Shown one piece after another: positions 375 through 18,895 of a stretch of 22,029 nucleotides of DNA. The stretch lies in the IMG/VR virus record IMGVR_UViG_3300021959_000453, positions 1-22,029 of that record; one strand, 5' to 3'. The notes below the pieces were generated by a model, which was given only the letters and a program-made list of their open reading frames with translations, did not search any database and had not been told where the DNA came from. Every line of letters starts with the position of its first letter. Within the stretch, counting starts at the first letter, position 1. The DNA comes from a virus. Position numbers and translations under genes: made by a program.

Positions 375-776
375 CTAGACTGACGCTTCGGTTACTGCAC
401 CGGAAACTTGTACTTCGAACGAGCCTTCAACCATGCCATCGAAAGATGCTGTGATTTCGTTACTAGTTACAATCCCACCGCCAGTGTAATACTTTTCGCC
501 GCTTCCTGTCCCCGTAGGATAAACCTCAAAATCGACAGCAGCCGCCGCGTCCATTACTAACTGAACAGCGTCAGCGTCATCCCAGTAAACCTCAGCAGAT
601 AAGGTGCCTGTTTTTAAAGATGAAACGTAGCTGCGATTTGTGTCGCCCATCGTCGTATCTTCGATTGTGTCCGCAGACTGCGTTAGGGTGTAGGATCGAA
701 CCTCACCCATAGCAGCAACAGTCCCACCATCGACAGCGAGTTTGATAACGCCTGTTGAACCTTTTGTTGTAGCCAT
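375..776 (-). CDS. Major tail (tube) protein
   Basis: The 133-residue protein has the features of a phage tail tube subunit: a short N-terminal segment followed by beta-rich sequence with SYTLTQSADTIEDTTMGD near residues 28-45, a tryptophan-bearing strand around residue 65 and a C-terminal section ending in SFEVQVSGAVTEASV. It lies between the tail terminator and the chaperone, the usual place for the tube gene. It starts at 776 behind AGAGGA at good spacing. It should polymerise as stacked rings forming the tube around the tape measure. Family assignment is by pattern and synteny. Confidence 0.8.
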   Translation of the reverse strand: MATTKGSTGVIKLAVDGGTVAAMGEVRSYTLTQSADTIEDTTMGDTNRSYVSSLKTGTLSAEVYWDDADAVQLVMDAAAAVDFEVYPTGTGSGEKYYTGGGIVTSNEITASFDGMVEGSFEVQVSGAVTEASV

Positions 777-2393: not shown

Positions 2394-2408
2394 GCTTCAG
2401 GATGCAGA

Positions 2409-3242
2409 TTAAAGTGCTGAGTCGAACAACATCTCAACGCCAAAGCTGTCATCAAGCTCACCTACGCCATAAACGGCAGTGGCGTTAAGCTCAAAGGCTC
2501 GCAAAGATGCGTCCCGCTGTGGCTCGATCTTGAAGTCACGCTTCATAGCAATAGCGAGTGCTTCAGGTGCAAATACTGCGCCTTTTGCGTCGTCGCTGCC
2601 GTCGATAGTGAGATTTGCAGACTCGTAGATGTCGATACCAGCAATCGTACCAACAAACGCATTCACCATAGCGGTGTTTTGCGCGATGCCAGCGTTTGGA
2701 TTTGCAAAGGTATTCGTCAAGTTAGCCTTGAGTTGATAAGCCTGGAAAGGATGCACAACCGCCGACATTCGACCAGTGACCTTATTGCTACGCAACGTTG
2801 CAGCAGCCTTAAACAAATCAGCAACTGTAATTTCAGTCCCAGCACCGCCTAAAGCAGAACTGAAGCCATCAAACAAAGCAATTAAGTCTTTGTCCATCTT
2901 AGTAGCAATTGAATTACCAAGGACAGTTCCAAGCTCTTCTGCTGGGTTGCCAGAACCCATTGCAGCAACGTCGGTCAATACGACCTGTGCGCCTACTTCT
3001 TGAACGGTGATCGTAATTGAGCTGGTGCTGACAGTCGTTGATGACATATCAGTGCCTTCGGTTAAGTCAGCAGCCGCGATTGCAGGGTACTTAGGAACCT
3101 GAATGGTTTTACCGGCATCAGCGCCGATATCATAACGAGTCACAAGACCCATCATTAAGGATTGCTCTTCAGCAGTAAAACGTGCCTGAGCGATAATGTT
3201 GACAAATAAGTCGTCAAGAGTTGTTGAGGTAGTAGCAGCCAT
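2409..3242 (-). CDS. Major capsid protein (HK97 fold)
   Basis: The 277-residue protein follows the scaffold gene and has the typical features of a compact HK97-type coat protein: an N-terminal arm (STTLDDLFVNIIAQARFTAEEQ), a central part with KTIQVPKYPAI and TVQEVGAQVVLTDVAA, helices with KMDKDLIALFDGFS, and a C-terminal region ending YGVGELDDSFGVEMLFDSAL. The start at 3242 follows GGAGA. At 277 residues it is on the short side for this fold. No separate protease gene is visible near it, consistent with a capsid that is assembled on a scaffold without extensive cleavage. Confidence 0.88.
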   Translation of the reverse strand: MAATTSTTLDDLFVNIIAQARFTAEEQSLMMGLVTRYDIGADAGKTIQVPKYPAIAAADLTEGTDMSSTTVSTSSITITVQEVGAQVVLTDVAAMGSGNPAEELGTVLGNSIATKMDKDLIALFDGFSSALGGAGTEITVADLFKAAATLRSNKVTGRMSAVVHPFQAYQLKANLTNTFANPNAGIAQNTAMVNAFVGTIAGIDIYESANLTIDGSDDAKGAVFAPEALAIAMKRDFKIEPQRDASLRAFELNATAVYGVGELDDSFGVEMLFDSAL

Positions 3243-3278: not shown

Positions 3279-3935
3279 TCATTTGGATTTCTTCATTGCA
3301 GAATATGCTTCTCTACCACCAGAATTCCAATTGTCGACCATATCAGCCACCGATACAGGCTTCGGAGTCAAGCCGCCAGCATTCCCAACACTTCCTGTGC
3401 CGCCGCCAGAGGCGCGGACAAAATGCGGGTTAGCTGTTAAGAAGTCAGCGACCAGCTCATTTACTGATAGCAAATCACCACTTCCGTTGTATCGCGGCGT
3501 ACCTTGCTCATCTAGCACTTCAACCCCGCCGTCTTCAGCGAGTCGCACTTGGCCTTTCAGTAGCTGCGATACTTGATTTGGCGACACTGCGTCGTTATTG
3601 CTTGCTGCATTCAACAGTGATCCATCGACCAATGTTTCTTGCAGCTTTTGCTTATACGCTGTGATTTCCAAATCTTTCTTTTCGACGGTCTGCTTTAAGA
3701 TACTTTCAAAGTCGCCGCGCTCTTTTTGCCGCTCTATGTCGGCCTGCTCACGCTCTTGCATGATCTTGCGCGCTTCATCTATGTCTATACCTTCGAGCTT
3801 TTTGTCCGCTTTCTTGCGTTCTCGCGCTATGCGATCTGCGACAATGCGATCTAACTCGTCTTGCGTAAACGTCTTTTGCTCCTGAGTAGTTTCCGTCGTC
3901 TCAGTTTCGACACCTTCCATGATTTGTTCGCTCAT
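3279..3935 (-). CDS. Capsid scaffolding protein
   Basis: A 218-residue protein immediately upstream of the capsid gene. It starts with an acidic Thr/Glu/Gln-rich stretch, followed by a charged coiled-coil-like region (DELDRIVADRIARERKKADKK to about residue 90), a middle region, a Gly-rich linker (ASGGGTGSVGNAGG) and a short basic C-terminal tail (YSAMKKSK). This is the general plan of DUF4355-like and related scaffolds, in which the basic tail contacts the capsid protein. It would direct procapsid assembly and then leave or be degraded. Confidence 0.8.
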   Translation of the reverse strand: MSEQIMEGVETETTETTQEQKTFTQDELDRIVADRIARERKKADKKLEGIDIDEARKIMQEREQADIERQKERGDFESILKQTVEKKDLEITAYKQKLQETLVDGSLLNAASNNDAVSPNQVSQLLKGQVRLAEDGGVEVLDEQGTPRYNGSGDLLSVNELVADFLTANPHFVRASGGGTGSVGNAGGLTPKPVSVADMVDNWNSGGREAYSAMKKSK

Positions 3936-16835: not shown

Positions 16836-17014
16836 TTCCTGACTGGATTTTGTCATTACAGTCTAGCGCCACTTGGGCACGTCGGTATGAGAATCGAGCT
16901 AACTTTGAGTGGGACGAAGACGTTGCAGAAGAATTGCAAATTATTGCAGAAAGATTAGAAACTTTATTATCTGAACAAGAGGAGAGATATGATGAGTGTA
17001 TGGCAAACGCTTAG
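16832..17014 (+). CDS. Small hypothetical protein
   Basis: A 60-residue protein starting MIPDWILSLQSSATWARRYE, with an acidic helical second half (EDVAEELQIIAERLETLLSE). It starts by ATGA overlap and has GGGAGG four bases before the ATG. Its end overlaps the annealing-protein gene by 23 bases in another frame. Family not recognised. Confidence 0.65.
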   Translation: MIPDWILSLQSSATWARRYENRANFEWDEDVAEELQIIAERLETLLSEQEERYDECMANA

Positions 17015-17600
17015 CTCAATTAATGTAAACGATCACACCGAAAGCAAAGGCAACTTGACCTACCTGTCATGGGCTTGGGCTTGGGCTGTAACTAAGCAGC
17101 ATTACCCAGAGGCAACGTATGCTTTCTTGGCAAACGAGATCCACAAAGACGAGACAATGACAGTTCATTGCATTGTAACAATTGAGGGCATAAGCCACGA
17201 AATGTGGTTGCCTGTAATGGATCACCGCAACAACGCCGTAGCAAATCCTAACGCCTTCCAAATCAACACCGCCAAGATGCGATGCTTGACCAAAGGCTTG
17301 TCGATGCACGGCTTAGGCTCTTACATTTACGCTGGCGAGGATTTGCCAAAAGGCGAACCCGAAAAAACTTATGAGCAATGGTGCCAAGAAAACAGCGACA
17401 GCATTATTGCCATCAAAGCAGGGATTGCTAACGACGATTTCTCAACCGCCTCTGAAGCATGGTTTGAGTTAGATGAGGAAACCAAAATAGCATTGTGGAA
17501 AGCGCCAACTAAAGGAGGCTGTTTCACCACGATTGAGCGTGAAATCATGAAGTCAGCAGATTTTAGAAAATTGTACGTCAACGAAGGGGAAAGTAAGTGA
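16992..17600 (+). CDS. Sak3-type single-strand annealing protein (DUF1071)
   Basis: About 202 residues with the DUF1071 signature: KGNLTYLSWAWAWAVTKQHY near the N-terminus, then VTIEGISHEMWLPVMDHRNN and FQINTAKMRCLTKGLSMHGL, ending in SYIYAGEDLP (about residue 120). This family includes the Sak3 recombinases, Rad52-like proteins that anneal complementary ssDNA during phage recombination. The C-terminal 80 residues are an acidic helical extension. ATGATG offers two starts; the second (16992) is better spaced from AGGAG. SSB follows immediately, a common pairing. Confidence 0.85.
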   Translation: MSVWQTLSSINVNDHTESKGNLTYLSWAWAWAVTKQHYPEATYAFLANEIHKDETMTVHCIVTIEGISHEMWLPVMDHRNNAVANPNAFQINTAKMRCLTKGLSMHGLGSYIYAGEDLPKGEPEKTYEQWCQENSDSIIAIKAGIANDDFSTASEAWFELDEETKIALWKAPTKGGCFTTIEREIMKSADFRKLYVNEGESK

Positions 17601-17971
17601 GCATTAGTGTAACAAGTAAATTAAACGACAACGCAAGAGAATTTAAAGCTGGCGAGTCAACTGGGTTTGGCCTCCGCTTGGGAGTCAAGTTCTACAACAA
17701 TCAAACTCGCGCAGATGAATGGACAAACTACGAATGCGCGATATTCACTCGCACTGATAATCAGGCAAATTATTACCGCCAAGCGCTTGTCAAGGGGGCG
17801 GTGGTTGAGGTGAGCGGGTCAGGGTGCTGGATTAAGACCTTTGAGGGCAAGAACGGAACAGTGAACACGATCTCAATCTTAGACCCGAAACTAGGATACG
17901 TTTATCGCGCTCAATCAGAACAAAACCAGCCGCCAGTGGATAACGCACTAGAAGATGACATACCGTTTTAG
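17597..17971 (+). CDS. ssb: Single-stranded DNA-binding protein
   Basis: A 124-residue OB-fold protein starting from a GTG that overlaps the upstream stop as GTGA. Strand-rich sequence with FGLRLGVKFYNNQTRADEWTNYECAIF in two parts, aromatic residues for base stacking (Y/W/F in WTNYECAIF), GAVVEVSGSGCWIKTF, and a flexible Gln/Pro-rich linker. It ends in the acidic tip EDDIPF, the hallmark by which bacterial and phage SSBs bind partner proteins. It would coat ssDNA and recruit the NinB/Orf and Sak3 proteins. Confidence 0.9.
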   Translation: MSISVTSKLNDNAREFKAGESTGFGLRLGVKFYNNQTRADEWTNYECAIFTRTDNQANYYRQALVKGAVVEVSGSGCWIKTFEGKNGTVNTISILDPKLGYVYRAQSEQNQPPVDNALEDDIPF

Positions 17972-17990
17972 GCTGTTTTAATAAAAAAGG

Positions 17991-18062
17991 TGACTGCTGG
18001 GGAATTGCACCCCATTGACGAGAAGGAGAGGAGGGGAAACGTCAAGGCACTAGCCGCAGTCA
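17991..18062 (-). ncRNA. Four-way-junction, tRNA-like structured element at the end of the holin operon (predicted; probable terminator)
   Basis: The 72 bases fold completely with no unpaired bases at the junction. On the minus strand: TGACTGC pairs with GCAGTCA (7 bp, 18062-18056 with 17997-17991); GGC-TAGT-GCC; TTGACG and CGTCAA around a 19-base loop; and TGGGG-TGCAATT-CCCCA, a T-arm-like hairpin. It is followed by CCTTTTTT, so minus-strand transcripts could end here; on the plus strand there is only a short T-tail. Its first three bases are the holin stop codon. It has a tRNA's size and acceptor and T-arm sizes, but no anticodon arm. It lies between convergent operons. Confidence 0.6.
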
Positions 18063-18458
18063 TTTATCTCTGTGTACATTGTTTTTCTTCTCGTATGTTC
18101 TCATCGCGCCCAGCCCAAGCATTCCCATTAAAACGGGCATCATGGTTTCTAGGGGGACGAGAGGTATAACTATGTCTAACTCAAGCAAAGCCAGCACAAA
18201 GTTGCTGAATGGGATAGTAATAAAGTTGCCAAACATACCTAGACCACATGTCCAACCGATGAACGGCCTCCAACCACTTACCATCAGGTTAGAGTTGGCC
18301 GCTTCGACCTTATTGATAGCCATCTGACCTTTAGCAAGCTCCTGAGCGTGTTGATCGGCCATTGTAGCCAGGTCATGCGCCAGTCTAGCCTTCTGGTCTT
18401 TGTCCTCTATAAACTTGTCTAACAGACCCGTAACAGGGCCAATGAGTGACTGAAGCAT
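18060..18458 (-). CDS. Holin (3-TM, gene-transfer-release type)
   Basis: A 132-residue protein of the 'holin of 3TMs' group. The N-terminus is soluble and helical (residues 1-55, ending AINKVEAANSNLMV). It is followed by the conserved SGWRPFIGWTCGLGMFGNFI (61-80) and hydrophobic spans at about 65-92 and 96-118, ending in a basic tail. Such proteins make the inner-membrane hole for lysis or particle release. The start at 18458, behind GAGGT, matches the family's usual N-terminus. It is the last gene of the fibre-to-holin operon. Confidence 0.85.
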   Translation of the reverse strand: MLQSLIGPVTGLLDKFIEDKDQKARLAHDLATMADQHAQELAKGQMAINKVEAANSNLMVSGWRPFIGWTCGLGMFGNFITIPFSNFVLALLELDIVIPLVPLETMMPVLMGMLGLGAMRTYEKKNNVHRDK

Positions 18459-18460
18459 AG

Positions 18461-18895
18461 CTACCTCACAATCGCAAATATTATAGTGAAACAAGCGTAC
18501 AGGCCGACACAAACCAGACTACACGCAACCACAAGCCCTACTATGTGCATTCGCTGATTAACTTTCTGGATGTGAGCATTCTTGGCCTCCAGCCTTGCCT
18601 TGCGAGCCTTAGCTTGAAAGATAATAAAATCGTCCCAGAGACCAGCCCGTCCGTAATAAACCATGAAGTCTTTTAATTCTTCCTCTGCCTTCTTGATCTG
18701 CTCCAGAGCCATAAACTCCTCGGCATCACTGGCAAACAGAGACTTCTTATTCTTTTCTTGGCGTAGTTTTAAGTCTTCCTTAGCGCCCACCATCTTACCG
18801 ATAGGTCCAAAACAATCCGCCAAGTCCCTGCCGTTCCCAATAAACTCTTTGACCACCCCGTAGGCGGCATTAAAAGCAGCGAGTTCAGCAATCAT
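18461..18895 (-). CDS. Charged protein with C-terminal membrane anchor
   Basis: A 144-residue protein. An N-terminal part (AAFNAAYGVVKEFIGNGRDL) is followed by a long charged helical region, and a hydrophobic span closes it at about residues 117-142 (IVGLVVACSLVCVGLYACF). The start at 18895 follows GGAAG. The type recurs near fibre and holin genes of aquatic phages; I know no proven function. Position next to the holin makes a role in lysis, such as a spanin-like or lysis-timing protein, plausible. Confidence 0.65.
   Translation of the reverse strand: MIAELAAFNAAYGVVKEFIGNGRDLADCFGPIGKMVGAKEDLKLRQEKNKKSLFASDAEEFMALEQIKKAEEELKDFMVYYGRAGLWDDFIIFQAKARKARLEAKNAHIQKVNQRMHIVGLVVACSLVCVGLYACFTIIFAIVR

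Follow-up and report, generated by a model that had tools for sequence, protein, structure and literature searches.

A conserved tRNA-like RNA with a pyrimidine-rich loop downstream of phage holin genes

We found a conserved RNA with a tRNA-like fold directly downstream of, and on the same strand as, the holin gene of a virus known from metagenomic sequence (IMG/VR record IMGVR_UViG_3300021959_000453, positions 1 to 22,029; this whole 22,029-nucleotide stretch is referred to here as the window). We are highly confident that this is a conserved tRNA-like RNA and that it is encoded on the holin strand. The RNA is in no searchable RNA family: Rfam at its cut-offs gave no match for the element, and no description of such a phage RNA was found in the open-access literature. 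It shows that RNAs of this kind escape standard annotation with ARAGORN and Rfam.

Fold and strand of the junction

A sequence-only reading of the window had described positions 17991-18062 as a gap-free four-way junction lying exactly between two convergent operons. Minimum free energy and centroid structures agree with this description on both strands, with stems of 7, 3, 6 and 5 bp (21 bp in all) occupying the 72 nt and leaving 0 unpaired junction bases. The proposed placement also proved correct, as the convergent single-strand-binding-like gene ends at 17971, short of the start of the junction at 17991, and the holin stop codon (TGA, 18062-18060 on the minus strand) lies within it. The fold is better than that of dinucleotide-shuffled controls, more clearly so on the minus strand (-26.7 kcal/mol, z -3.89; 0 of 200 shuffles equally good) than on the plus strand (-25.1 kcal/mol, z -2.60; 3 of 200).

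Missing from that reading were the strand polarity, the tRNA architecture (T-loop, acceptor-like stem and trailing CC) and the polypyrimidine anti-Shine-Dalgarno (anti-SD) loop. The minus strand gives four stems arranged and sized as in a tRNA: an acceptor-like stem of 7 bp, a mini D-arm, an anticodon-like stem of 6 bp and a T-arm (Table 1). The ACC end is present in all members of the family, in either of two registers.

Table 1. Features of the tRNA-like RNA and its surroundings in the window
Feature	Position	Strand	Evidence
Holin (GTA_holin_3TM), directly upstream of the RNA, same strand	18060..18464	-	Pfam PF11351, E 6.4e-20
tRNA-like RNA, 72 nt, read 18062 to 17991	17991..18062	-	fold, homologues, covariation
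Acceptor-like stem, 5' strand UGACUGC, which includes the holin stop codon UGA	18056..18062	-	fold
Mini D-arm GGC-UAGU-GCC	18046..18055	-	fold; stem invariant across all members
Anticodon-like stem, 5' strand UUGACG	18040..18045	-	fold; two-sided changes at 5/6 pairs
19-nt all-pyrimidine loop UUUCCCCUCCUCUCCUUCU with CUCCU (anti-SD core), in the place of the anticodon loop	18021..18039	-	
Anticodon-like stem, 3' strand CGUCAA	18015..18020	-	fold
T-arm UGGGG-UGCAAUU-CCCCA (5-bp stem, 7-nt loop)	17998..18014	-	fold; aligns to Tymovirus tRNA-like T-arm
Acceptor-like stem, 3' strand GCAGUCA	17991..17997	-	fold
CC 3' of the acceptor-like stem, giving ACC like the 3' end of a tRNA	17989..17990	-	
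U-run, missing from most relatives	17983..17988	-	
Convergent single-strand-binding-like gene, tail DDIPF, without Pfam match	17597..17971	+	
SSAP_Sak gene, neighbour of the single-strand-binding-like gene	16989-17600		Pfam

The functional RNA could instead be the plus strand, with its purine-rich loop (AGAAGGAGAGGAGGGGAAA) offering GGA motifs as a CsrA sponge or as a Shine-Dalgarno (SD) decoy, and in the window type both strands do fold. However, the target pairs form completely or to 96% on the holin strand of three diverged members (L261, L001 and L008) and to 54-57% on the complement, a loss of about 45% of the pairs on the plus-equivalent strand, and the T-loop motif and trailing ACC are found on the holin strand. 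We rejected a plus-strand CsrA sponge because the complement fails to keep the fold in these members, and we consider a functional plus-strand RNA highly improbable.

The junction had also been read as more than a simple terminator, asymmetric in having its T-run on the minus-strand side only. The asymmetry is real (the sole run is the A-run at 17983-17988 of the plus strand), as is a gap-free junction between convergent operons that amounts to more than a hairpin terminator; the implied terminator role lacks support. An intrinsic terminator between convergent operons, asymmetric or bidirectional, would suit the position and the minus-strand U-run of the window, but a U-run just 3' of the structure occurs in the window, in L081 (a near-identical relative) and in L275 and is missing from most members, which leaves this reading unsupported. 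The junction was not listed by a terminator scan, and termination has no need of a tRNA topology, a T-loop or a constant pyrimidine loop. We therefore regard a terminator as very unlikely.

Relatives, covariation and gene neighbourhood

Among the DNA 3' of the holin in 60 related contigs, the same object with a different sequence was found in L001 and L008 (GGCUGGGCC), with anticodon-like stems such as UACGAUU...GGUCGUA and a tRNA-like T-arm loop, UUCGAUU. In 541 kb, a covariance model built from close members only (R1) recovered these two (L001, E 6e-6; L008, E 3e-5) as its sole new sequences. Pattern scans and covariance models gave 17 further loci, so that with the window we aligned 18 loci with 13 distinct sequences, all from uncultured phage contigs. 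They form four types: the window type, the L261 type (UAG D-loop, UGCGAUU T-loop), the L001 type (L001, L270 and L316) and L008. The family is probably larger, since the scans of sequence collections used exact patterns and the 18 loci are among the matches listed.

Relatives of the single-strand-binding-like genes that we examined yielded no new members, and a second scan with an L008-type holin returned mostly contigs already in the set. No cultured phage carrying the RNA was found by blastn, nor did the covariance model find a member in parts or genomes of C72C1, HTVC202P, DSL-LC06, Vibrio phage 1.266.O and Venkman. A pattern scan of bacterial genomes gave no member among the matches listed, as judged by eye with a simple pairing check. 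There was none in 294 genomes of one order, which is weak evidence as that order offers no positive control.

The stems are kept in the relatives. Across the 13 distinct sequences, 100% of aligned paired cells hold standard pairs and 10 of the 21 pairs show two-sided changes; the acceptor-like stem of L008 forms either if one mismatch is allowed or if the alignment is gapped. The third T-stem pair, for example, is A-U in L001, U-A in L270 and G-C in L316. MAFFT misplaces the loop when both subfamilies are aligned together, and we therefore used a model-based alignment. As counts on such an alignment lean towards its structure, we added slid controls and RNAalifold: there are 35 double-change cells, compared with 8.8 +/- 2.4 in shuffles and 0-9 in alignments slid by 1-3 columns, and RNAalifold recovers the same structure. 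Covariation rather than energy is the decisive support for the fold, because some relatives taken singly fold no better than their own shuffles (L001, z -0.58; L008, z -0.54).

These compensatory changes, together with the constant C/U loop, show continuing selection and speak against an origin as a tRNA gene in decay or as a host tRNA fragment from an attachment site. Such an origin would explain the tRNA-like T-arm and the acceptor-like stem, but the element has neither a 7-nt anticodon loop nor linkers, ARAGORN called no tRNA for it (the ground on which a tRNA gene was rejected), and by eye the ORF list of the window contains no integrase-like ORF. We consider either origin highly improbable. 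Identity to the RNA of the window is 92-100% among members of the window and L261 types, compared with 59-80% for the 400 bases upstream and 59-62% for the 300 bases downstream. This conservation beyond that of the flanks, and the identical RNA that follows an unrelated gene in L111, suggest that selection acts on the RNA itself.

Two loci have the appearance of cassette exchange at the RNA boundary: L111 (1-872), where the RNA identical to that of the window lies downstream of an unrelated small gene, and around L275 2700, where the RNA lies downstream of a diverged holin. In L111, L275 and the L001 type a stop codon occurs upstream of the RNA, and the leading UGA is nevertheless kept. The convergent neighbour varies, being the single-strand-binding-like gene in the window, a different gene in L082, and in most others a small zinc-ribbon-like protein followed by a single-strand-binding-like gene. 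The zinc-ribbon-like protein has 53-54 aa (FC..C..RRDFKIC..CR, tail WLQKRW or WLQKAW) and is encoded on the minus strand at L261 1580-1741, L117 3821-3982 and L115 7140-7301, in each case with its stop 3-5 bases from the RNA 3' end; in L290 the corresponding ORF runs antisense into the tRNA-like RNA.

The pyrimidine loop

The loop that takes the place of the 7-nt anticodon loop is 16-19 nt long and consists almost wholly of pyrimidines, with purines at 4 of 178 loop positions in ten distinct sequences. CUCCU occurs in all ten distinct loops, where shuffled loops would lead one to expect 3.8 (P 5e-5, without correction for kinship). An exposed loop with an anti-SD core, a feature of anti-SD regulatory RNAs, is thus present in 10 of 10. 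The alphaproteobacterial CcsR/cuckoo RNAs and the staphylococcal C-rich-loop RNAs are simple hairpins with a C/U-rich anti-SD loop. They share this loop with our element and differ from it in being processed by RNase E and in having no tRNA fold. CcsR is derived from a 3' UTR, being cut from a protein-coding transcript (PMC8625941, PMC10253847).

The predicted pairing of the loop with the window's own ribosome-binding regions is -2.45 kcal/mol, against -2.43 for the 16S tail; shuffled loops reach -2.01, so that most of the preference for ribosome-binding sites follows from composition. In L117, L001 and L008 the pairing is not clearly better than that of shuffled loops. No single mRNA target common to all members was found among predicted pairings with ribosome-binding sites. 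One candidate for a conserved target, the ribosome-binding site of a putative replication gene (MRSND(N/T)PPWFR...), was set aside, as it matches strongly in L115, L261, L286 and L308 and not in the others. We see the case for an anti-SD function of the loop as evenly balanced.

The leading rival is that the tRNA-like fold is purely a 3'-end device for the late mRNA, which sets and shields the end of the message by recruiting RNase P or tRNA 3' enzymes or by blocking exonucleases. On this view the C/U loop would be bound by a protein, for instance Rho, S1 or a cold-shock protein, and would have no antisense role. The RNA is always at the end of the late operon, mascRNA provides a precedent, and loop composition is kept better than loop sequence, all of which would be expected of such a device. 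However, CUCCU is commoner than composition predicts, and a pure end device would not need a constant loop of 16-19 nt. We consider this reading possible but doubtful.

Known tRNA mimics and the proposed processing

RNAs that mimic tRNA and recruit RNase P are found in plant viruses and in two mammalian long RNAs. The best sub-threshold Rfam matches of our element are such tRNA mimics: Tymo_tRNA-like for the window (E 0.044) and mascRNA-menRNA for L001 (0.061) and L316 (0.029). Scores for mascRNA-menRNA (RF01684) are 15.6-20.7 bits, so far below the cut-off of 42.5 bits that the element is not a member of that family, and Tymo_tRNA-like (RF00233) scores 18.7 bits against a cut-off of 40. With our own covariance model R2, members score 60-99 bits and genuine phage tRNAs 15-31 bits.

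Like tRNA (RF00005), the element has the cloverleaf order, a D-loop G, a T-loop C, an ACC end and, in relatives, a T-loop UUCGAUU, but it lacks linkers, a canonical full D-loop and an anticodon. The T-loop matches TTCRANY in the L001 type and L008 (T-stem 5-6 bp) and is UGCRAUU in the window and L261 types. One D-loop G and the T-loop C are invariant in members; the elbow contact that RNase P uses is G19-C56 (PMC4810234). By our assignment, the window type resembles the Tymovirus consensus in having A/G at the positions equivalent to 18/55, where the L001 type has G/U. The RNA may be L-shaped.

The fold and RNAalifold both give a gapless cloverleaf with a mini D-arm, as in mascRNA-menRNA. These RNAs, from the 3' ends of MALAT1 and MEN-beta, share with our element a four-way junction without linkers, a mini D-arm, a T-arm and a position at the 3' end of a longer transcript; the crystal structure of mascRNA has no linker residues and a small D-arm with two conserved G, and its maturation involves RNase P, RNase Z and CCA addition (PMC11693755). 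Our element is from phage, not mammals, and has a C/U loop of 16-19 nt where mascRNA has a compact one, and the likeness is probably convergent. In the tRNA-like structure of Tymovirus, Pomovirus and Furovirus (RF00233), the T-arm GGGGUGCAAYUCCCC and the AGU D-loop are nearly identical to those of the window type, but the element comes from a DNA phage and has neither the acceptor pseudoknot nor the valine anticodon. Phage transcripts cut by host RNase P include the C4 antisense RNA of P1/P7, M3 RNA and T4 gene 32 mRNA (PMC11143913); our element would be a further such substrate.

We propose that the late minus-strand transcript runs through the holin into this compact, linker-less tRNA mimic at its 3' end. 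The ends of the RNA are most likely defined, or the RNA released, by host tRNA enzymes: RNase P would cut on its 5' side, and the ACC end would be trimmed or receive CCA. The precedents of mascRNA, the Tymovirus ends and the known phage substrates (PMC11143913) suggest recognition by RNase P and a 3' tRNA enzyme, and the T-arm, stacked helices and ACC would favour RNase P cleavage. By this analogy, we judge processing by tRNA enzymes moderately probable. A separate small RNA released in this way would present its unstructured 16-19-nt C/U loop, CUCCU would pair with SD sequences in vivo, and the RNA would act as an anti-SD riboregulator late in infection, with possible effects on host or phage translation or on the timing of lysis. 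The whole chain, from a tRNA mimic at the end of the holin transcript through processing to riboregulation, seems to us a little less probable than its failure at some step.

The holin stop codon of the window type is part of the acceptor strand. A ribosome that completes the holin would therefore open the fold of the RNA, and cleavage would deprive the holin mRNA of its stop codon. RNA maturation and holin translation may thus exclude each other, which could serve as a lysis timer. The L001 type and L008 have a hairpin and a stop codon of their own ahead of the RNA, and cleavage at the RNA 5' end would leave the holin mRNA capped by this hairpin. This hairpin, between the holin stop and the tRNA-like RNA, is GGGTTTCGCAAGCCC at L001 about 3403-3428, with a counterpart in the same place in L270, L290, L316 and L317, and GGGGGCCGAAGCCCCC at L008 about 3398-3427. 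We consider it unlikely that the tRNA-shaped RNA, made by host tRNA enzymes from the end of a lysis-gene mRNA, mimics the 16S rRNA 3' tail such that its CUCCU titrates SD sequences and resets translation at the end of infection. If the proposed riboregulation is correct, this family of DNA phages would have a new kind of phage riboregulator, in which a tRNA scaffold without linkers bears an anti-SD loop at the end of the lysis operon, and late gene control or lysis timing would be tied to host tRNA processing.

Four other contigs contain what may be a second, unrelated tRNA-like family with an anti-SD loop (..CUCUCCUCCUUUG..), at about 2400-2500 (+) in L501, about 640-735 (+) in L447 and, on the minus strand in reverse-complement coordinates, about 4620-4715 in L480 and about 3920-4010 in L489. 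These elements lie between a single-strand-binding-like gene and a large replication gene, on the same strand, and adjoin genuine tRNA genes in L447 (tRNA-Thr/tRNA-Asn) and L480 (tRNA-Asn). Just upstream, all four share a block, AATGGGCAATCCTGAGCATGATTTAAAACTGCT, with a hairpin stem that varies from contig to contig. The block is reminiscent of a core element of group I introns, although Rfam found no group I intron there in any of the four. In L501 a 10-nt pairing is predicted between the loop and the ribosome-binding site of the gene that follows. This second group suggests that the combination of a tRNA-like fold and an anti-SD loop may have arisen more than once.
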